Of a DNA stretch of 46,357 nucleotides, positions 1,499 through 42,437 are shown piece after piece (position 1 is the first letter of the stretch; each line of letters opens with the position of its first letter). The stretch comes from an uncultured Clostridia bacterium. GTDB taxonomy: Bacteria > Bacillota > Clostridia > Christensenellales > Borkfalkiaceae. Location of the stretch: positions 1 through 46,357 of the forward strand of contig CALVMD010000012.1 of the NCBI GenBank assembly GCA_944342025.1, in the 5' to 3' direction. Made by a program: the position numbers and the translations under genes. The notes below the pieces were generated by a model. The model was given only the letters and a program-made list of their open reading frames with translations. It was not told where the DNA came from and searched no databases.

Positions 1499-2971
1499 TT
1501 AAATTTCCGAAAACGCATCTTTCAGAGCAGGATAAAGCAGCCTGAAGTTGTCGTATTTTTCCGCATACCGCCGCGCGATCTCTCTGTCCGGCAAAAGAGT
1601 CTCTTTGATCCGCACGATCGCATCGGCCGCTTCCCGCACCGACCTATATTCTCCGCAGCCGACCATGGCGAGCATCGCCCCTCCGTAAGAGGGTCCCTGC
1701 TCCGTCTGCGGGATGTCGACGGGCATATCCATGACGTTTGCAATGATCTTGCGCCAAAGCGGGCTCTTTGCGCCGCCGCCGCAAAGCTTGGTTCGTTCGA
1801 TCTTCACGCCGTTCTTTTTCGCCGCTTCCAGACAATCGCGAAGTGCGAACGCCACCCCTTCCAATACCGCGAGCGTCATCTGCTTTCTCGTCGTATCCGG
1901 CCGCATGCCGATGAATGCACCGCGCGCGTTCACGTCGTTGTGCGGGCTGCGCTCGCCCATGAGGTAAGGGAGAAAATACACATCGTTTTTGCCGAGCTCT
2001 TCCTCCAGCCCCTCCTGCTCTTTCGCATAGTCGTTCGTCTGCAGAATTTTATCCGACCACCAGGCGTTGCAGGACGCCGCCGAGAGGATACACCCCATCA
2101 GATGCCAGCCCCCGTCGGCATGGCAGAAACTGTGCAGGGCGTTGATCTTATCTTCCCTGTACGACGTTGCCGAAACGAACAGCGTGCCGCTCGTGCCGAG
2201 GGAGATATTGCAGCCGCCCTCGCCGACCACGCCCGTGCCGACCGCGGCGGCGGCGTTATCCCCCGCGCCCGCGACGACCTTGACGTCCGCCGAAAGCCCG
2301 AGCGTCTCCGCGATCTCCTCTTTGAGCGTCCCCACAACTTCGTAACTTTCATACAGTTTGGGCAGCTGCTGTTCTGAAATGCCGCAAATCTCGCACATTT
2401 CCTTGCTCCATCTGCGGTTTTTTACGTCTAAAAGCAGCATGCCGCTCGCGTCCGAATAATCGGTGCAGAAAGCGCCCGAAAGCCTATACGCCAAAAAGTC
2501 TTTGGGCAGCATGATCTTGGCGATCTTTTTGAAGTTTTCCGGTTCTTCCCTCTTCATCCACAAAATTTTGGGCGCAGTAAAGCCCGCAAACGCGATGTTG
2601 CCCGTATACGCCGAGAGCTTTTCCTTCCCGATGATGGTGTTGAGATATTCCGTCTGCTTTTCCGTCCTGCCGTCGTTCCATAAAATGGCGGGGCGGATAA
2701 CGTTGTCGTCTTTATCCAAAGCGACCAGCCCGTGCATCTGCCCGCCGAAGGAAATACCCTTTACAGCGGCTTTGTCCTGACCTTTGAGCAGTTCTCTCAG
2801 CCCGCGCATCGCCGCGGCGAACCAGTCTTCGGGGTTTTGCTCGCTCCAACCGGGATGCGGATAAAAAACATCGTAGGTCTGGGTGTTTTCCGCTAAAATT
2901 TTTCCGTTGCCCGTCACGAGCAGGAATTTTGTCCCGCTCGTGCCGAGGTCGATGCCGATATATGTATTCAT
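1499..2971 (-). CDS. xylB: Xylulokinase (FGGY family)
   Basis: Phosphorylates D-xylulose (or a similar ketopentose) with ATP to the 5-phosphate, feeding the pentose phosphate pathway. The 490-residue length is typical. The N-terminal loop GIDLGTSGTK (6-15) binds phosphate. GGQMHG near 76-81 is the signature that separates xylulokinases from other FGGY kinases. AGAGDNAAAA contains the catalytic Asp (about 238), and GGGAKSPLWRKI lies in the C-terminal ATP domain. AGGAGG stands five bases before the ATG. The gene follows the isomerase gene with a 136-base structured spacer, so both are probably co-transcribed. Glycerol or L-xylulose kinase activity cannot be ruled out. Confidence 0.93.
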   Translation of the reverse strand: MNTYIGIDLGTSGTKFLLVTGNGKILAENTQTYDVFYPHPGWSEQNPEDWFAAAMRGLRELLKGQDKAAVKGISFGGQMHGLVALDKDDNVIRPAILWNDGRTEKQTEYLNTIIGKEKLSAYTGNIAFAGFTAPKILWMKREEPENFKKIAKIMLPKDFLAYRLSGAFCTDYSDASGMLLLDVKNRRWSKEMCEICGISEQQLPKLYESYEVVGTLKEEIAETLGLSADVKVVAGAGDNAAAAVGTGVVGEGGCNISLGTSGTLFVSATSYREDKINALHSFCHADGGWHLMGCILSAASCNAWWSDKILQTNDYAKEQEGLEEELGKNDVYFLPYLMGERSPHNDVNARGAFIGMRPDTTRKQMTLAVLEGVAFALRDCLEAAKKNGVKIERTKLCGGGAKSPLWRKIIANVMDMPVDIPQTEQGPSYGGAMLAMVGCGEYRSVREAADAIVRIKETLLPDREIARRYAEKYDNFRLLYPALKDAFSEI

Positions 2972-3112
2972 TGAAACCTCCTATGCTTTAAGCGCAGAGA
3001 AGCGAGCAAGACAAGAAGCGCGCGGCTTTGCAAGGGGCGCGTACACAGACGCACGTAACCCGCGGCAAAACGCAAGCGCGACAACGTATTGCGACGCTTA
3101 TATGCGCTTAAA
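2972..3112 (-). repeat. Structured spacer between isomerase and xylB
   Basis: A 136-base intergenic stretch bounded by a perfect 10-bp inverted repeat, tttaagcgca at 2987-2996 and tgcgcttaaa at 3103-3112. The interior is rich in GCG blocks. No T-run or promoter is seen, so it may be an mRNA fold for processing or differential expression rather than a terminator. The repeat reaches into the isomerase stop codon. Confidence 0.45.
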
Positions 3113-4601
3113 ACGGATTTTCCGTCTTATACCTGACGCTCGCAGGCTGATTGTATCCGATTTCCTCCACGGGTACGCCGATGTATTTGAACACTTCGTA
3201 CAGCTCTTTGCCGAAATGCCCGAACGCCACCGCGCCGTGGTGCGGGTAATTGCCTTCAATCAACACATGGCGGTAGAACCGCTTCATTTCGGGAATGGCG
3301 AAAATGCCGATGCTGCCGAAAGAATGCGTGCGCACGGGCAAAACTTCGCCCTGCGCCACATACGCGCGCAGCTTGTTGTCCGCCGTCGACTGCAGGCGGA
3401 AGAAGGTGATGTCGCCCGCCTGAATGTCCCCTTCCAGCGTTCCCTGCGTGACCTCTTCGGGCAGAGAACGCGCCATGATGAGCTGATACTTCATCTCGCA
3501 GAAGCACAGCTTTTTCGAGCAGGTGTTGCCGCAGTGGAAGCCCATAAAGGTATCGGTGAGCGCGTACGGGTACTTGCCCTCGATGTCCGCCTTATACAGA
3601 TCCTTCGGCACCGTGTTGTTGATGTCGAGAAGCGTCACCGCGTCTTCGCTTATCACCGTGCCGATGAATTCGGACAGCGCGCCGTAGATGTCCACCTCGC
3701 AGGAGACGGGGATGCCGCGGCCCGTAAGGCGGCTGTTCACATAGCACGGGACAAAGCCGAACTGCGTCTGGAACGCGGGCCAGCACTTGCCGGCGATCGC
3801 CACATATTCGCGCGAACCCTTGTGCGCTTCGATCCAGTCGAGGAGCGTAAGCTCGTACTGCGCGAGCTTGGGCAGGATCTCCGGCTTTTTGTTGCCCTTG
3901 CCCAGCTCCTTTTCCATATCCTTTACGACGTCCGCGATGCGCTTGTCCCCGTCGTGCTTGTGGAACGCCTCGAACAGGTCAAGCTCGGAATTCTCCTCGA
4001 TCTCCACGCCGAGGTTATAAAGCTGCTGGATGGGCGCGTTGCACGCGAGGAAGTTTGTGGGACGAGGCCCGAAGGAGATGATTTTGAGATGTTTGAGAGC
4101 ATACACCGCGCGCGCGATGGGCAGAAAGCCGTGCAGCATGTCCGCGCACTCCTCCGCATCCCCCACGGGATATTCGGGGATATATGCCTTTACGCCGCGC
4201 AGTTTCAAATTATACGAAGCGTTGAGCATGCCACAGTATGCGTCGCCGCGCGAACTTGCGAGCGTGGGGATATCTTCCTCTGCCGCGGCAAAGAACATGA
4301 CCGCGCCGCCCACCTTTTCGGAAAACTCCTTGGCGAGCATCGTTTCGGAAATTTCCGGCCCGAAGTTGCCGAGGTACACCGCGAGCGCGTTGCAGCCCGC
4401 CTTCTCCACGTCTGCGAGCGCCTGCTTCATATGGATCTCGCTCTCCACGATGCACACGGGGCACTCGTAAATGTTCTCTTTGCCGTACTTTTTCTCGTAC
4501 GCCGCGACGAGCGCTTTCCTTCTGTTCACAGACAGGCTCTCGGGGAAACAATCCCTGGAGACTGCCACGACCCCAACCTTGATCTTGGGAATGTTCTGCA
4601 T
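3108..4601 (-). CDS. L-fucose/L-arabinose isomerase-family sugar isomerase
   Basis: A 497-residue member of the FucI/AraA fold, which interconverts aldoses and ketoses with a divalent metal. Candidate metal ligands are Glu302 (CEVDIYGA), Asp326 (LLDINNT) and His454/455 (NYPHHGAVAF), matching the Glu-Asp-His set of FucI. It is shorter than E. coli FucI (about 590) and resembles the broad FucI-like group of unproven specificity. GGAGG precedes the ATG. Its partner is the xylulokinase just downstream, so a ketopentose product (xylulose or ribulose) is plausible. It begins 31 bases after hemL with no convincing promoter or terminator between them. A second, divergent paralogue lies at 36374-37768. 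Confidence 0.85.
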   Translation of the reverse strand: MQNIPKIKVGVVAVSRDCFPESLSVNRRKALVAAYEKKYGKENIYECPVCIVESEIHMKQALADVEKAGCNALAVYLGNFGPEISETMLAKEFSEKVGGAVMFFAAAEEDIPTLASSRGDAYCGMLNASYNLKLRGVKAYIPEYPVGDAEECADMLHGFLPIARAVYALKHLKIISFGPRPTNFLACNAPIQQLYNLGVEIEENSELDLFEAFHKHDGDKRIADVVKDMEKELGKGNKKPEILPKLAQYELTLLDWIEAHKGSREYVAIAGKCWPAFQTQFGFVPCYVNSRLTGRGIPVSCEVDIYGALSEFIGTVISEDAVTLLDINNTVPKDLYKADIEGKYPYALTDTFMGFHCGNTCSKKLCFCEMKYQLIMARSLPEEVTQGTLEGDIQAGDITFFRLQSTADNKLRAYVAQGEVLPVRTHSFGSIGIFAIPEMKRFYRHVLIEGNYPHHGAVAFGHFGKELYEVFKYIGVPVEEIGYNQPASVRYKTENPF

Positions 4602-15507: not shown

Positions 15508-16077
15508 CTAGATCATGTACAGGAGCATGCCGAGCGCCGCGGCCGTCAGAATTAAAATGATGGGAGAGGGCGATCGTCCGGTAAATTTTCTGAACAGGAA
15601 GATCTCCGCCAGAAGCCCCGCGCCTATGGCCGCCGCGCGCCAGTCGAAACCGAACGTCCCGTTTTCGCCCGTGAGGAAAAAGATCTGCACCGCCATCCAC
15701 AGCCCCGTCGCACAGATCAGCCCCACGATGACGCCGCGGATGCCGACCAGTGCGCCCTGCACCCATCTGTTTTGCAAAAACGTTTTGAAGACGGACGCGA
15801 TGATGAGGATGATGATAAAGGAGGGCAGAACGACGCCGACCGTGGCGCACAGTGCGCCGAGAATGCCCGCCTGCGACGAGCCGATAAACGTCGCCAGATT
15901 GACCGCGATCGGCCCGGGCGTGGATTCCGCCACGCCGATAAAGTTCATCAGCTCCCCTTCCGTCAGCCAGCCGCGGGAGACGACCTCATCTTGGATCATA
16001 GGCAGCATGCTGTACCCGCCGCCGAAAGACACGACGCCGATCTTGCAGAAAATAAGGAAAAGGGTCAGGTACTCCAT
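15508..16077 (-). CDS. Chromate transporter half, ChrA family (second gene)
   Basis: A 189-residue membrane protein of about six helices with the ChrA signature: FGGGYSMLPMIQDEVV followed by GVAESTPGPIAVNLATFIG. ChrA proteins (CHR family) export chromate, or act on other oxyanions, using ion gradients. In many Firmicutes the two homologous halves are separate short genes, as here. The ATG at 16077 shares one base with the TGA of the upstream half, and GGGGGAAAG provides the ribosome site. It ends with TAG, a useful control for the amber codon at 39201. Confidence 0.9.
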   Translation of the reverse strand: MEYLTLFLIFCKIGVVSFGGGYSMLPMIQDEVVSRGWLTEGELMNFIGVAESTPGPIAVNLATFIGSSQAGILGALCATVGVVLPSFIIILIIASVFKTFLQNRWVQGALVGIRGVIVGLICATGLWMAVQIFFLTGENGTFGFDWRAAAIGAGLLAEIFLFRKFTGRSPSPIILILTAAALGMLLYMI

Positions 16078-34562: not shown

Positions 34563-35480
34563 TCATGCCCCGCTCTGCACGCGGATAGAAAGGGAAAAGA
34601 GAACCTTTTCTCCCGCACCGATCTCGCTGTATGCGAATCCGCCGTCCAACTCCGTCGTGCAAGGCTCTAACCCCAAGGCGTAATCGCCCGCCGCCATGCT
34701 CTTCCACTCCACGAAATGCGGGAGCGTATCGCCCGACCATTCGAGAGAAAACGTTTTGCCGAGCGCCGCGTTTTTCAGTGAAATGCGAGGCGTTTTCAGT
34801 TTCAGGAAATAACACATCTCCTCTTCGTTCGGCACGGGCGCCTTCATCCCGCACCTGCTTTCGGCGTACCGTGCCGCCCACGACGTACGCGGAACAACTT
34901 CCTCCGCATCGTCAAAAAGCCGTGCGCCCGCGTCCAGCATGGGATACCCCACGTTGACGTGATACAAAAGGCAATAATTTTCCGTGCGCGTACCCCTGTT
35001 TTCCGGCGTGTCCGAAATTTCCAGCGTATCCGACCCTATTGCCGAAAACACGCGGCGGCGGAAGACCAGGTTTTTGCCGAACAGCTCCGTCTCGGAAATT
35101 TCCGCCTCGATGAGGATCCCCTCTTTTGAGCATTCCGCGCGCGTCACCTTTGCGGGCGCGTTGTGATGGGTACCGTGCAGTTCGAAACCGTCTCTGCCGC
35201 CGACGCTGTCCAGCCCGCAGGTATAGAGCATGCCGCCCTCGAAGCGGTTTGCAAACGGTATCTCCCGCGCGGTAAAGCCGTTTTTGCTGATAAACGAAAT
35301 GTTCTGCCCCTCGTGATACAGCTGCATCACGTCCAACGCCTTGCTCTCATTGAGCAAAAAGCGCAATTTACCGTTGTCGCAGTCGAGAACGCGCAGACCG
35401 CGCTCCGGCCCTTCCGTCAGCTCATAGCGGCGGACTGAGGCGACCTGCATAAAATTGGAAATCCGTCCGTCCATATTCAT
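34563..35480 (-). CDS. DUF4432 / aldose-epimerase-like protein
   Basis: 305 residues related to galactose mutarotases through the DUF4432 group. GLRVLDCDNGKLRFLLNESKALDV near the N-terminus, FEGGMLYTCGLDSVGG and ELHGTHHNAPA (about 95-110) match the conserved region, and EWKSMAAGDYALGLEPCTTELDG forms the C-terminal active-site strand with a likely catalytic Glu. It may interconvert anomers or epimers of the sugar handled by the operon; this is inference. AAGGAG lies three bases before ATG 35480 and nine before ATG 35474, so either may be used. It is the last gene of the kinase-isomerase-aldolase operon. Confidence 0.8.
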   Translation of the reverse strand: MNMDGRISNFMQVASVRRYELTEGPERGLRVLDCDNGKLRFLLNESKALDVMQLYHEGQNISFISKNGFTAREIPFANRFEGGMLYTCGLDSVGGRDGFELHGTHHNAPAKVTRAECSKEGILIEAEISETELFGKNLVFRRRVFSAIGSDTLEISDTPENRGTRTENYCLLYHVNVGYPMLDAGARLFDDAEEVVPRTSWAARYAESRCGMKAPVPNEEEMCYFLKLKTPRISLKNAALGKTFSLEWSGDTLPHFVEWKSMAAGDYALGLEPCTTELDGGFAYSEIGAGEKVLFSLSIRVQSGA

Positions 35481-35524: not shown

Positions 35525-36370
35525 TTACAGATTGCTGAAAACTTTTAACGTCGTCAGCGCGTTCTCTTCCATCGCCTTCTGCGCGGAGAGCGCCATGTCA
35601 TGGAAAAAGCCCGTCGGCTCCTTTTCCGCATGCGCCTTTGCCTCCGCGTATCCCGCATAGGACATATAACTGAAATAGTTGATCTTATTGATGCCGCGGC
35701 GGATGACCTCGCGGTATTCTTCATGCGAAATGCCGCTGCCGCCGTGCATGACGAGGGGAATATCCGTCTTTTCGCGCACCTTCGTGATGACGTCCATGTT
35801 CAGGACCGGTTTGACCTTATAGATGCCGTGCGCCGTGCCGAAAGCGACGGCGAGCGCATCCACGCCCGTCTTTTTGAGATAGTCGGGCACGAGGTCGGGA
35901 TCGGTGTACAGATCTTCGGGGCGCTCCTCCCCGCCGCCCGCGCCGCCCTCGCGGTTGGGGAGCCTCCCAAGCTCCGCCTCGACGTCGACGCCGTGCGCAT
36001 GCGCGTAGTCGACGACTTCGCGCGTGCCCTTCGCATTCTCTTCGTACGGAAGCGTCGAATAGTCGATCATGACCGAAGTGAACCCGAGCGCGATCGCCTT
36101 TTTGCAATAAGAAAAATCTTCGCCGTGGTCAAGATGCACGCACACGGGCACTTTGCTGCGTTTGGCAAGCTCGAGCATCACGGGACCGATTTTATCCAGC
36201 GGTGCGACGGACTCGTGCAGCTGCGCGTGTGAACAGATGACAGGCACGTTCAGCGTTTCCGCCGCATCCAGCACAGCGAGCAGACATTCGAGGTTGGGCG
36301 TATTGAACGCCCCGACCGCCGCTTTTTTCTTTTTGGAAATTTCAATGACTTCTCTCAATGACGCTAACAT
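35525..36370 (-). CDS. Class II (zinc) ketose-bisphosphate aldolase family protein
   Basis: 281 residues of the Fba/GatY/KbaY TIM-barrel family, which cleaves ketose 1,6-bisphosphates or related sugar phosphates to DHAP and an aldehyde. The general-acid Asp and first zinc His are in CVHLDHGEDF. Further ligands lie in DVEAELG, AFGTAHGIYK and VMHGGSGIS, and DINxx-type phosphate contacts are in INYFSYMSYAG. Substrate stereochemistry (tagatose, fructose or a deoxy sugar) cannot be read directly. The gene starts three bases after the isomerase stop with GGAG upstream, placing it third in a kinase-isomerase-aldolase series. Confidence 0.9.
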   Translation of the reverse strand: MLASLREVIEISKKKKAAVGAFNTPNLECLLAVLDAAETLNVPVICSHAQLHESVAPLDKIGPVMLELAKRSKVPVCVHLDHGEDFSYCKKAIALGFTSVMIDYSTLPYEENAKGTREVVDYAHAHGVDVEAELGRLPNREGGAGGGEERPEDLYTDPDLVPDYLKKTGVDALAVAFGTAHGIYKVKPVLNMDVITKVREKTDIPLVMHGGSGISHEEYREVIRRGINKINYFSYMSYAGYAEAKAHAEKEPTGFFHDMALSAQKAMEENALTTLKVFSNL

Positions 36371-36373
36371 GTC

Positions 36374-37768
36374 TCACTCCTCTATGCTGACGATATCGTA
36401 GCCCAGATAGGTGGCAAACGCCTCTTCGAGCACCTCTTTCATGTGCCCGACGCCCACCGTGGTGTGGTGTTTGAACCCGCCGCGTGCAAGGCGCAGGAGC
36501 TTGTTCTGCAGATCGGGGATCTCTGCCACGCCGCCGCAGCCGAAGAATTCCTTTTCGATGGGCTCGCCCGTAAAGCGCGCCTCGCTCGCATATACTTTGA
36601 GTTTTCCGTTTTCGGTAAAGCAGTTGGAGAAAGTCATATCGAACGCGGCGATCCTGCCCTCGTTGCTGCCCCAGCCCGAACCGGGGTCGCCTTTTGCGAA
36701 CATCTTGTGTTCAGTTACGGTACCTTTGCCCGCCATGAGAGACTGCGCGACAGGCCCGCAGTGGAAGAGGATGACCTTGTTTTCGTCCTCGCCGTAGTTA
36801 TTGTTCCAGTCGAGGCACGCCGTAGGCTTGCCGCTCGCAAGGTTCATTGCACGCATGGTGATGGCAGAACAGAGGTCGATCTCGCAGGAGCAGACGATGC
36901 CGCGGTCGTTGAGTTCCGATATGAGCACGCACGGACAGACGCGCAAAATCGTTTCCATCTCGTTCCAGCACCTGAGCGTGATCGCGTCCAGCTTGTATTC
37001 TTCGATATATTCGTCGATGACGACGGAGATCTTTGCGAGCGTCAGCTTGTTCTTTTCGGGCACATGCGAAAAATCCGTATAGCTTTCCAGCCGCTTGACC
37101 TTGGCGAGCACCGCCTTGTCGTCGTCCTTCTTCTGCCCGACCTTGAACACGAGCTCGGAAAGATCGAAGCTCTCCACGTTGATGCCGTAGCGCTGCAAGG
37201 TCACTTCGTCGAAGCGCACCGTCTTGAACGCCGTCGTCCGCGCCCCGATGCAGCCGAGGTTGAACCGGCGCATGCCCTTGACTACGCGGCAGATCGCGGC
37301 AAAATCGTCCAGATTTTGGCGGAACGCCTCGCTCAAAGGGTGAACGACGTGCGGTTTCATCACCGTGAACGGGATCTTGTACTGATAGAACACGTCCGTC
37401 ACGGAGAATTTTCCGCAGAAGGCGTCGCGGCGGTGCGCGAAGTCCATTTTTCCGATCTCGTCGGGGTACGCCTGCATGAGAATGGGCACATTCGCGTCCT
37501 GCAATGCCGCCGCCGCGCCGTTTTCGTCGATGAAGATGGGCATGCACAGAATGACGCCGTCGTACTCCCCCTCGTGGCTTTTCAGCCAGTCGTGGTACAG
37601 CCTGCCCTCTTCGCGCGTTTCCACCGCGCCGTAACGGGTCGCGTTCTCGTCCATCGCCAGATACTCGTACCCTGCGTCGGTGACTGCCTTGATCATATCC
37701 GCGCGAGCGCCCGCGATGAGTTCTGCGGGCATAAACCCGCGGTTGCCGAAATACAATACGAATTTCAT
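36374..37768 (-). CDS. L-fucose isomerase-like sugar isomerase (second paralogue)
   Basis: 464 residues of the FucI/AraA fold. The candidate metal ligands are Glu296 (SCEIDLCSA), Asp320 (CLDWNNNY) and His434/435 (GFKHHTTVGVGH), the same triad as in the paralogue at 3108-4601. Overall similarity to that protein is low, so the two probably serve different sugars. A conserved CWNE (267-270) precedes the Glu ligand region. It starts one base after the kinase stop and ends three bases before the aldolase gene. Substrate is unproven; L-fucose, D-arabinose and related aldoses are candidates. Confidence 0.85.
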   Translation of the reverse strand: MKFVLYFGNRGFMPAELIAGARADMIKAVTDAGYEYLAMDENATRYGAVETREEGRLYHDWLKSHEGEYDGVILCMPIFIDENGAAAALQDANVPILMQAYPDEIGKMDFAHRRDAFCGKFSVTDVFYQYKIPFTVMKPHVVHPLSEAFRQNLDDFAAICRVVKGMRRFNLGCIGARTTAFKTVRFDEVTLQRYGINVESFDLSELVFKVGQKKDDDKAVLAKVKRLESYTDFSHVPEKNKLTLAKISVVIDEYIEEYKLDAITLRCWNEMETILRVCPCVLISELNDRGIVCSCEIDLCSAITMRAMNLASGKPTACLDWNNNYGEDENKVILFHCGPVAQSLMAGKGTVTEHKMFAKGDPGSGWGSNEGRIAAFDMTFSNCFTENGKLKVYASEARFTGEPIEKEFFGCGGVAEIPDLQNKLLRLARGGFKHHTTVGVGHMKEVLEEAFATYLGYDIVSIEE

Positions 37769-37769
37769 C

Positions 37770-39242
37770 TCAATAAAACTCCTTTACCGTCCGATAGATT
37801 TTTTTGTATCTTCTATATTGCTCCCCGTATGCGGCATGCGCCGCCTTGTCGGGGAGATATTCGCCCGCATACTGCACGAAGATCTTTGCCGCTTCCGCAA
37901 GGTCTTTCGCCGCGCCCGCCGCCGCGGCCTGCAACATCGCGCAGCCGCACAATCCCCCTTCGGAAGAGCGCAGCGTGCGGAAAGGGATATTCTGAATGTC
38001 CGCTTTCAGGCGGAGCCATTTCTCGGAATTTGCGCCGCCGCCCGTCGCGACCGCAGATTGGATGCGGATGCCGTACCGTTTGACCGTTTCGGCGTTCAGC
38101 CGCATCTCCATCGCCGTGCCTTCCAGGATGGACTTGTATACGTCTGAATCGGATGCGGAAACGGTGAGATTCAGCATCGCGCCCTTCGCGTTGATGTTCT
38201 GATACGGCGTCGCCGCCCCCGCAAAGTACGGCAGCGTCAGAATGTCCGTAGGGCCTTCGCGCATCCCCTTTTCGATATAGGCAAAAAAGGACTCTTCTTC
38301 CCCCTTATATCCGTGCAGAAGAGCGTTTTTGAACCAGTTGACGAGCAGCCCGCTCGAATAGTTGAACATGTATGTGCAGTACAGCCCGTCCACCGCATAC
38401 GGAACGACGGGATACCCTTGCTTGCCCATGCGGACATCGGCGGAAACGGCGTCAAAGACCGCCGTCATGCACTCGACCGTGCCCAACCCGTCCACCGCGT
38501 CGCCCGCTTTTACCGCGCCCGCGCCGAGCGCCGAGCAGATCTGATCGTGCGAACCAAGGACAAGTGTCACGTCGTCCGTGATGCCGAGCTCTCTCAGCAA
38601 AGCCTTTTTCACTTTCCCGACAATGCTACCTGTCGGCCGTGGTACGGAAAAAAGAGATACGTCCACCCCGAAAGCGGACAAAACTTTTTGATCGAACGCG
38701 CGCTCCGCGATATGGAACGCGCCCGTGCGCGCGGCGAGGCCGTAATCGACGGCGCGTTCGCCCGTGAGAAGATAGCCTAAATAATCGCAGATGAGAAGGA
38801 TCTTATCCGCCCTTTCAAACACCTCGGGCGCATGTTTTTTGATCCATAAAAGCTTGGAAAGAGAGAACATGCTCTGCGGCAAAACACCGACGCGGGCGTA
38901 CAACTCCTCCGCACCGAATTTTTGCAAAATCTCTTCCGCCTCTTCCTCTCCGCGAGGGTCGGTGTAGAGCATGGGCAAAAACAAAACGTCGCCGTCTTTG
39001 TCCAACAGAACGAACGATTCGCCGAACGTTGAAATGCACATCGAGGAAAATCCGCCCCGCATTGCGGCAAAGCGCATCATCTCTTTGACGCGCGAAAAGA
39101 CCCCCGCAACGTCGACGTATTTCTCCCCGTCCCGTTCCAGAAGCGGATATTCCTCGCTCTTATAAGCGAGGATTTCTCCCCTCTCCGAAAAAAGCTGGCA
39201 CTAGCAGCAGGTCGTGCCCACATCCAGGCTCAAAAAGTTCAT
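37770..39242 (-). pseudogene. FGGY-family carbohydrate kinase with in-frame amber codon 14
   Basis: Read from ATG 39242 the gene encodes 490 positions, the normal FGGY length. It begins LSLDVGTTCC, then TAG (39201-39203), then CQLFSERGEILAY in the same frame. The amber codon falls where the conserved Lys of the phosphate loop stands in xylB (GTSGTK), and one base change (AAG to TAG) explains it. GGAGG lies eight bases before the ATG. Downstream the frame is intact: LGSHDQICSALGAG with the catalytic Asp, and ATGGGANSEKWLRLKADI. The QMHG motif of xylulokinases is replaced by STFGES, so another sugar is expected. A start at 39080 would lose the whole loop. Either a recent nonsense mutation, suppression, or a sequence error. 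Confidence 0.85.
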
Positions 39243-39351: not shown

Positions 39352-40149
39352 ATGAAAGACTACGACCTGCAAAAGATGCGGGAACTGCTGCACGACTTCT
39401 ACAACCTGACAAATATGAAGATCTGCATTTACGACAGTGCGGAAAACGAGCTTTGCTACTATCCCGAAAAGCTGACGCCGTTCTGCCGTACTCTTCGCGA
39501 AGATGAATTTGCGGACGAAAAGTGCCGTGCGTGCGACAGGCGCGCCTTTGCCGAGTGCAAAAGGACGCACCGCCGCGCCGTGTATACCTGCCACGCGGGG
39601 CTTGTGGAGTGCTTTTCCCCCATTTTATACAACGACAATATCATCGGATATATCGTCATCGGGCAGATACGCCCGAAAGATGGCAAGCCGCGGCAAGAAA
39701 ATGCCGCTCTGCAAAAGCTGTATGAGAAACTCCCCACGGCGGATATGGACAAGATCAGCTCTGCCATCCATATCCTCGACGCGTGCGCGGGCTATGAGTA
39801 CCTGAAAACGCTCGTTTCCGATTACGATGCGCGCATCGACGCGCGCATCGCGGCATACATCGAAGAAAACCTGACGGGCGATCTGTCCGTGGCGGCGCTG
39901 TGCCGCAAATTTCACCTTTCACGCGCCGAACTGTACTCTCTTTTCCGGGAATATTTCTCCTCCTCCGTTGCGGATTTCGTCAAAAACAGGCGCCTGCAAA
40001 CGGCGCGGAGATTTTTGGAACAAACGCGCCTCCCCGTGAATAAAATAGCGCAGCTATGCGGCATCTCCGATTATAATTATTTTTCCAAGCAGTTCAAAAA
40101 GGCTTTCGGTCTGTCCCCTACGGAGTGGAAAAAACGCGCACAAGTCTGA
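39352..40149 (+). CDS. AraC-family regulator with PocR sensory domain
   Basis: 265 residues. Residues 1-140 resemble the PocR ligand-binding domain. It carries the cysteine/histidine cluster DEKCRACDRRAFAECKRTHRRAVYTCHAGLVE, which may bind metal or ligand, then FSPILYNDNIIGYIVIGQ. Residues 165-265 hold two AraC helix-turn-helix motifs: LSVAALCRKFHLSRAELYSLFREYF and LPVNKIAQLCGISDYNYFSKQFKKAFGLSPTEWKK. It is divergent from the kinase-isomerase-aldolase operon with 109 bases between, and most likely activates it when the sugar or an intermediate is present. GGAG lies nine bases before the ATG. Confidence 0.9.
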   Translation: MKDYDLQKMRELLHDFYNLTNMKICIYDSAENELCYYPEKLTPFCRTLREDEFADEKCRACDRRAFAECKRTHRRAVYTCHAGLVECFSPILYNDNIIGYIVIGQIRPKDGKPRQENAALQKLYEKLPTADMDKISSAIHILDACAGYEYLKTLVSDYDARIDARIAAYIEENLTGDLSVAALCRKFHLSRAELYSLFREYFSSSVADFVKNRRLQTARRFLEQTRLPVNKIAQLCGISDYNYFSKQFKKAFGLSPTEWKKRAQV

Positions 40150-41138: not shown

Positions 41139-42437
41139 CTATCTCCTTTCGCCGCCGAAAAAAGCACGGACAAGCGGGCGGCGCCTGATCTTTTTGTCCG
41201 ATACCGTAAACGCGCTCTCGGCGAGGGCAAGCCCCTCGCCCTGATCCCGGTTATAATACACTTCGGCGAGCGTTTCTCCCTTTTCGGCATGATCGCCCCG
41301 CCGCTTTTTCAGGAGAATGCCGACCGCATGGTCCACGCCTTCCCCCTCTCTTTCTCTGCCGCCGCCGAGCGCGGCGCACGCCCTGCCGAGCGCTAGGGCG
41401 GAAACATCCACCCAGCCTTCCTCCTTTGCCTCGACGCAAAAGACATTCTTCGCCAGGGGAAAATTGCCGTAGACCTGCCGTCCGTCGCCGCCCTGCGCAG
41501 AGACGATCTCGGCAAGCTTTTTCAGCGCGGCGCCCGAACGCACGCATTCATGCACGGCCTCTATCGATTCTTCCTTAGAGCATCCGTTTGCTGCCTGCAG
41601 GATCTTCGCCGCATGGAACAGGGAAAGCTCGGAAAGGTCGTTCTCCTTTTCCCCGCGCAAAATCTGCAAGACCTCGTTGACTTCGGCATTGCAGCCGATG
41701 TTGTCGCCGAGCGGCGCGCCCATATCGGTGACGGCGGCGAGCGTCTTCCGCCCCGCCTTTGACCCGATCGAAACCATCAGCCGAGCGAGCTTTTCCGCCT
41801 CGTGCGCCGTTTTCATAAAGGCGCCGTCGCCGCATTTGACGTCCAGCAGGATGATGTCGGCAAAAGACGCCAGCTTTTTGCTCATGACCGACGACGCGAT
41901 GAGCGGAATGCTGTCCACCGTGGCGGTCACGTCGCGCACGGCGTACATGCGCTTGTCGGCGGGCACCGTTTCCGACGTCTGCCCCGAAACAGCGCCGCCC
42001 ACTCTCTCTACCTGGCGTTCGAACTCTTCGGGCGAAAGATCGACCCGAAGCCCGGGAAAACTCTCCAGCTTATCCAGCGTGCCGCCCGTGTGCGCCAGAC
42101 CGCGGCCCGAATACTTTGCGCATTTGACCCCGAGCGCCGCCAGAACGGGCACGAGGACGAGCGTCGTCGAATCGGACACGCCGCCCGTGGAATGTTTATC
42201 GGCATACACCCCTTCCGCCTTCGGGCGGGGCGCGCATGTTCCGCTCTCCGCCATCGCGCGCGTGAGGCAGAAACACTCCTCGTCCGTCATGCCGTTAAAG
42301 TACACAGCCATGCAGAACGCGGCGATCTGACTGTCCGCGGCGCTCCCGTCCGCGACCTTTTTTACGAAAAAAGAGATCTCCTCTTCGTTAAGTTCCCTGT
42401 CCTGCTTTTTCGCCTCGATCACGTCATATACCCGCAT
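41139..42437 (-). CDS. pdp: Pyrimidine-nucleoside phosphorylase
   Basis: 432 residues. It splits thymidine, deoxyuridine or uridine with phosphate to free base and (deoxy)ribose-1-phosphate. The family signature SGRGLAHTGGTLDKLESFPG is intact, phosphate is bound through DKHSTGGVSDSTTL, and ALDVKCGDGAFMK is present as LLDVKCGDGAFMK. Thymidine and pyrimidine-nucleoside phosphorylases are hard to separate by motif; the Clostridia setting favours Pdp. It is the first gene of the pair with deoC. GGGGAGG stands ten bases before the ATG. The stop codon is TAG. A terminator-like hairpin lies just upstream (42462-42488). Confidence 0.94.
   Translation of the reverse strand: MRVYDVIEAKKQDRELNEEEISFFVKKVADGSAADSQIAAFCMAVYFNGMTDEECFCLTRAMAESGTCAPRPKAEGVYADKHSTGGVSDSTTLVLVPVLAALGVKCAKYSGRGLAHTGGTLDKLESFPGLRVDLSPEEFERQVERVGGAVSGQTSETVPADKRMYAVRDVTATVDSIPLIASSVMSKKLASFADIILLDVKCGDGAFMKTAHEAEKLARLMVSIGSKAGRKTLAAVTDMGAPLGDNIGCNAEVNEVLQILRGEKENDLSELSLFHAAKILQAANGCSKEESIEAVHECVRSGAALKKLAEIVSAQGGDGRQVYGNFPLAKNVFCVEAKEEGWVDVSALALGRACAALGGGREREGEGVDHAVGILLKKRRGDHAEKGETLAEVYYNRDQGEGLALAESAFTVSDKKIRRRPLVRAFFGGERR

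Follow-up and report, generated by a model that had tools for sequence, protein, structure and literature searches.

The locus described here raises the question of whether an amber codon that falls exactly on an invariant lysine of a sugar kinase is read as an amino acid, is a genuine mutation, or is an error of the assembly. The window (the whole stretch of DNA that was analysed, 46,357 nucleotides) belongs to a draft genome, G000, of 1.57 Mb in 25 contigs and 77.9% completeness, whose closest named relative at the kinase locus is Candidatus Borkfalkia avistercoris, with 79% identity over the kinase. On the minus strand, from an ATG at 39242 that has a GGAGG a short way upstream, the frame reads MNFLSLDVGTTCC-TAG-CQLFSERGEILAYKSEE and continues downstream. 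Translation of this open reading frame (37770-39242) agreed with the initial annotation that TAG is codon 14 (39201-39203) and that 476 sense codons follow it, up to a TGA at 37770-37772. The part of the protein encoded past the stop matched both FGGY domains (PF00370, FGGY_N, 131.2 bits; PF02782, FGGY_C, 80.7 bits) and shared 79% identity with its closest relative, the homologue of genome G012. Its best relative in NCBIfam was the xylulokinase model TIGR01312 (XylB), below the cut-off. Like other FGGY kinases, the gene has the two domains, the N-terminal motif as far as the lysine, and isomerase and aldolase neighbours; unlike them, it carries a stop in place of the lysine of that motif, and the post-stop part stayed below the cut-off of each of the 12 NCBIfam kinase models listed. 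The TAG interrupts a real and constrained gene.

The residue concerned is the last of the motif DxGT[TS]xx[KR], in which Arg may take the place of Lys. In the translated product the motif is broken, as its Lys position is TAG. The Lys-14 column is invariant across the 10 intact homologues of alignment A1, and the Lys of GTSGTK in the xylB of the window (1499-2971) was judged by eye to occupy the matching place, so that the lysine proposed in the initial annotation from this same comparison was found again. We then read codon 14 at 18 distinct close loci, namely 13 relative loci, the window, and L230, L231, L232 and L236. Locus L233 was left out as it is the same locus as L079, with the same start residue and the same sequence, and megablast among the 18 loci gave no pair that exceeds 95% identity over a length of more than 300 bases. 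Codon 14 of L078 was read from G017:C130, a contig that agrees with it in length and number. Lysine was found at 15 loci (10 AAA and 5 AAG) and TAG at one, the window; at the other two, L079 and L232, the 5' part of the kinase is absent. Among more distant homologues, the best alignments gave Lys in all 15 that covered the codon. The premature stop therefore has no counterpart in the intact relatives, as befits a null allele. It had been proposed that an intact codon in sister strains would mark an error or a strain-specific mutation; the relatives compared were congeneric and more distant genomes rather than sister strains, and their lysine points to an error or a lineage-specific mutation.

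The two loci devoid of the 5' part differ in their organization. At L079:6001-7008, from a water-deer colon genome, the kinase aligns from residue 155 and lies, as judged by eye, behind a sequence resembling an alpha/beta hydrolase; this gene run may be an operon in decay or the product of an assembly join. At L232 (G398:C56), the kinase aligns from residue 81, starting at position 579, and no regulator was seen upstream of it within the available locus DNA. At both loci, the 5' part may truly have been deleted, or it may be missing through an assembly join.

The genes around the interrupted kinase are intact. An L-fucose-isomerase-like gene (36374-37768, minus strand), 96% identical to that of L068, adjoins its 3' end, and the same gene run contains a class II ketose-bisphosphate aldolase (35525-36370, minus) and a DUF4432 protein (34563-35480, minus), with a divergent PocR/AraC-type regulator (39352-40149, plus) on the other side. 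Within the sequence available at each of the 13 relative loci, the isomerase-like gene was kept at 12, the aldolase at 10, and the DUF4432 gene and the regulator at 11 each, and the run of regulator, kinase, isomerase, aldolase and DUF4432 probably constitutes an operon. A match to the kinase at E <= 1e-120 was obtained in 9 of the 40 genomes of the genus, including that of the window. No second copy of the kinase was found in the assembled G000, where the other matches were 26-30% identical and the best-scoring one was xylB (28%). The kinase and the isomerase of Candidatus Borkfalkia avistercoris lie about 1.2 kb apart (L068:7483-8682), and the window has no such gap.

To look for signs of decay, we compared the 12 full-length copies of the kinase. 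Of the 147 columns that are invariant in the 11 others, 3 differ in the window, one of these departures being the TAG itself, and by an identical count the other full-length copies depart at 1 to 6 columns. Between the window and L068, the NG86 method gave a dN of 0.158, a dS of 1.016 and a dN/dS of about 0.16, as against 0.221, 1.573 and 0.14 for L068 and L069, which are both intact. Across these 12 copies, neither a further lesion nor relaxed constraint was seen in the window kinase, with a dS of about 1 to the nearest relative, a distance at which a short or modest decay is invisible to the substitution test. The low dN/dS and the few departures suggest that the kinase was under normal selection until recently. 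The absence of other lesions is equally compatible with a young allele, with an error and with readthrough.

In our reading, the TAG is probably a recent nonsense substitution, which would leave the sampled strain with a loss-of-function allele. Codon 14 of the kinase, in a conserved sugar-catabolic run, would have been hit recently; translation would begin at the normal ATG and end after 13 residues, so that no active kinase would be made, the neighbour genes being intact, and the allele would not have existed long enough to accumulate more lesions. This reading supposes that the TAG base is likely real and not an artefact. The kinase also seems to be losable, since broken copies exist at L079 and L232. 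Another explanation, which we consider possible but clearly less likely, could be a base-call or consensus error, or a base from a minority strain that entered the assembly, the gene being intact in the organism. Such an error is conceivable because G000 is an incomplete draft (77.9%), and it would agree both with the kinase showing no other sign of decay and with the 15 intact close relatives keeping the lysine.

If the assembly were rich in errors, other genes should be interrupted as well. We screened 446 kb of G000 for in-frame stops that have no start nearby and beyond which the coding signal resumes at once; stops followed by a start codon within 12 codons escape this design. This screen flagged 10 of 347 segments; on inspection by eye, 7 had a normal-looking start further in, 2 were seemingly antisense, and the last was the kinase. 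No other clear stop-interrupted gene was found among the 347 segments. A homology screen over the 138 kb of G000 that is covered by homologues from related genomes flagged 6 sites, of which the TAG of the kinase was the one interior stop supported by multiple queries. Both counts argue against an error, as so few interior stops indicate that the assembly is not error-ridden; a single error is nevertheless still compatible with them. We rank the recent nonsense allele as the most likely explanation and a base or assembly error as the second, and recoding as improbable. Out of the four options listed by the initial annotation, the fresh nonsense mutation and the base-call error survive, and amber suppression and pyrrolysine insertion receive no support, as detailed below.

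The normal use of UAG as a terminator in this genome speaks against its general reading as an amino acid. TAG ends 27 of the 346 coding segments that have a stop in the 446 kb of G000, and 3 of 41 genes of the window that were chosen by hand among the listed open reading frames. It was confirmed as the ordinary stop of pdp (41139-41141, minus) and of the downstream chrA half (15508-15510, minus), both of which had been put forward for this purpose. The release factor RF1 (prfA) is present (523.8 bits for a cut-off of 423.25), and loss of RF1 was rejected on this ground. Together, RF1 and the terminator counts uphold the earlier view that wholesale reassignment of TAG is unlikely. In the portion of the literature that we surveyed, no paper on Borkfalkia with an altered genetic code was found, and a DNA pattern scan of viral contigs gave no match.

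Pyrrolysine is a lysine derivative encoded by UAG. By both its codon and its chemistry, it would suit a lysine site such as codon 14, and the window resembles pyrrolysine-encoding bacteria and archaea in having an in-frame TAG within a conserved gene. It differs from them in that its genome has neither a PylS over the cut-off nor a CUA tRNA that we could find, and in that its relatives have an ordinary lysine. Searches for PylS and for a CUA tRNA, among those suggested by the initial annotation, came back negative: in G000 and 60 relatives, 0 of 61 genomes exceeded the PylS_Cterm cut-off of 178.15 bits, the best score being 30.6. Weak matches were obtained in 57 of the 61 genomes (25.1 and 20.7 bits in G000). 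As 13 of the 14 control genomes matched too, one of them over the cut-off, the weak matches presumably come from other synthetases. The absence from G000 alone is not final because about 22% of this genome is missing, yet none of the 60 relatives rose over the cut-off either. Insertion of pyrrolysine at codon 14 is therefore nearly refuted, and we regard it as the least probable of all the readings.

A weaker form of recoding would be amber suppression or programmed readthrough, in which lysine or another residue would be inserted at codon 14 and a little active kinase would be made. The codons after the stop remain conserved, which would favour such a process. We looked for a tRNA able to read UAG. 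An RF00005 search of G000 (77.9% complete) with ARAGORN reading yielded 28 tRNAs, none with a CUA anticodon, in a set that is incomplete because Lys, Phe, Ile, Asp, Asn, His and Trp are not named among the 28. We also scanned the 40 genomes of the genus, including that of the window, for a tRNA-shaped pattern containing TCTA with one form of the T-arm. There were 31 matches in 26 of the 40 genomes, and a reversed control pattern matched at least as often. ARAGORN was applied to 14 of the 31 loci: 5 were Arg(UCU) tRNAs at the match and 9 contained no tRNA. Among the 17 other matches, those that are tRNA-like share the Arg(UCU) sequence, as judged by eye, and no CUA tRNA was recognised in this 40-genome scan. 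The L079 genome gave 23 tRNA matches, and the 17 loci passed through ARAGORN, which contain the neighbouring matches as well, yielded no CUA anticodon. These negative results, the presence of RF1, and the single well-supported interior stop in 138 kb all argue against suppression, which we consider improbable.

The RNA downstream of the TAG could have provided a signal for such an event. The 90 nt that follow the stop (39111-39200, minus) have a better fold than every one of 200 shuffled versions (z -3.5) and contain a 9-bp hairpin (CCUCGC...GCGAGG) 28 nt downstream of the TAG, inside the kinase coding sequence. This feature would favour readthrough, but the hairpin is also present in L068, L069 and L075 and is missing in several others. 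The corresponding 90 nt of L068, which has a Lys codon, gave a z of -5.1, and the 11 other full-length copies range from -5.1 to +0.2. The hairpin was thus rejected as a recoding signal, since some relatives that encode Lys at this place have it and others have lost it, and it probably follows the encoded peptide.

Readthrough would also be supported by similar stops elsewhere in the genus, and by the finding, in the parts of the paper by Belinky et al. 2021 (PMC7918605) available to us, that interior stops with dN/dS below 1 are widespread in bacteria. In the homology screen as a whole, 12 sites were flagged and 3 were kept, all of them TAG: the window kinase, xylB of G017 and a DUF4432 gene of L079. 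The discounted sites lay, by eye, upstream of start codons or were supported by one query only; one of them, G017 L189:10358, is a TAA, and its discount is provisional. At L079:9486, the interior TAG of the DUF4432 gene lies where relatives vary. In G017, a genome of the same genus, the interior of xylB (L106, G017:C71; also L265) contains a TAG where a TAPK motif has its conserved Lys, at the codon matching K135 of the window xylB, to which the gene is otherwise about 81% identical. A search of the family for xylB gave 110 matches in 105 of 398 genomes, with 14 flagged for a stop; after realignment, one stop was interior (that of G017), one lay at query position 488 of 490, and 12 matches had none within the alignment. 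In G036, xylB is split into two pieces on two contigs (G036:C18:2284-2994 and G036:C11:75051-75818, residues 1-237 and 234-489).

The weight of these sites depends on what random mutation would produce. With the codons used by 13 genes of the window, TAG would result from about 49-55% of random single-base nonsense changes, and about 6-9% would place TAG at a Lys codon. Three TAG out of three are therefore not significant, and finding a stop at a Lys codon need not surprise by itself. We estimated that two Lys sites among three stops would arise by chance in roughly 2% of cases, a post hoc figure based on three events, on which we rest no conclusion. A stop at an invariant Lys, joined by the Lys-to-TAG change in G017 xylB, is mildly unexpected under random nonsense mutation. 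Both confirmed interior stops in FGGY kinases of the genus are TAG at a conserved Lys, and one could imagine that, in some Borkfalkia lineages, an unrecognised suppressor tRNA or a near-cognate tRNA-Lys inserts an amino acid at UAG with low efficiency, so that UAG at an invariant Lys acts as an expression brake on sugar kinases; we regard this as a speculative idea of very low probability.

It could also be proposed that translation starts again past the stop and gives a shorter protein with a new, non-kinase role. The next in-frame ATG, GTG or TTG after the TAG is the ATG whose first base is 39080 (minus), 40 codons on and after 54 codons of the gene, and the 436-codon stretch from it is open, which would give a product of 436 residues. 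Its constraint equals that of the relatives, but this speaks of the ancestor and not of a truncated protein, because full-length relatives share it. As the initial annotation anticipated for the nucleotide loop, the product would be devoid of the N-terminal DxGTTxxK segment, and its FGGY_N match would begin at profile position 73. In the sections of the report consulted, alanine mutants of the related sugar kinase SePSK at D8 and T11, residues that correspond by motif to the lost segment, had a much lower ATP hydrolysis (PMC4880283). Loss of function would fit the product from 39080, and re-initiation with a new role appears very unlikely to us.

If the TAG is what it seems to be, namely a recent nonsense allele or a consensus error, it matters little, being one more strain-level event of this kind in a sugar run. 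Even a kept stop would be no new kind of thing, since what we could consult of Belinky et al. 2021 (PMC7918605) presents in-frame stops in otherwise conserved genes of low dN/dS as a widespread feature of bacteria. The window resembles the cases found there in having one stop and remaining codons with a low dN/dS, and differs in that its TAG is known from one draft genome. The locus does call for caution, as a stop at an invariant motif residue mimics recoding, with which terminator use, RF1, the tRNAs found and the absence of further clear interior TAGs disagree. Were UAG read as Lys here, the gene would exemplify naturally occurring amber suppression among gut Clostridia. Finally, the window contains two diverged fucose-isomerase-like genes, 3108-4601 and 36374-37768 (minus), and both show a weak similarity, far under the cut-off, to the sulfoquinovose isomerase model NF048012.
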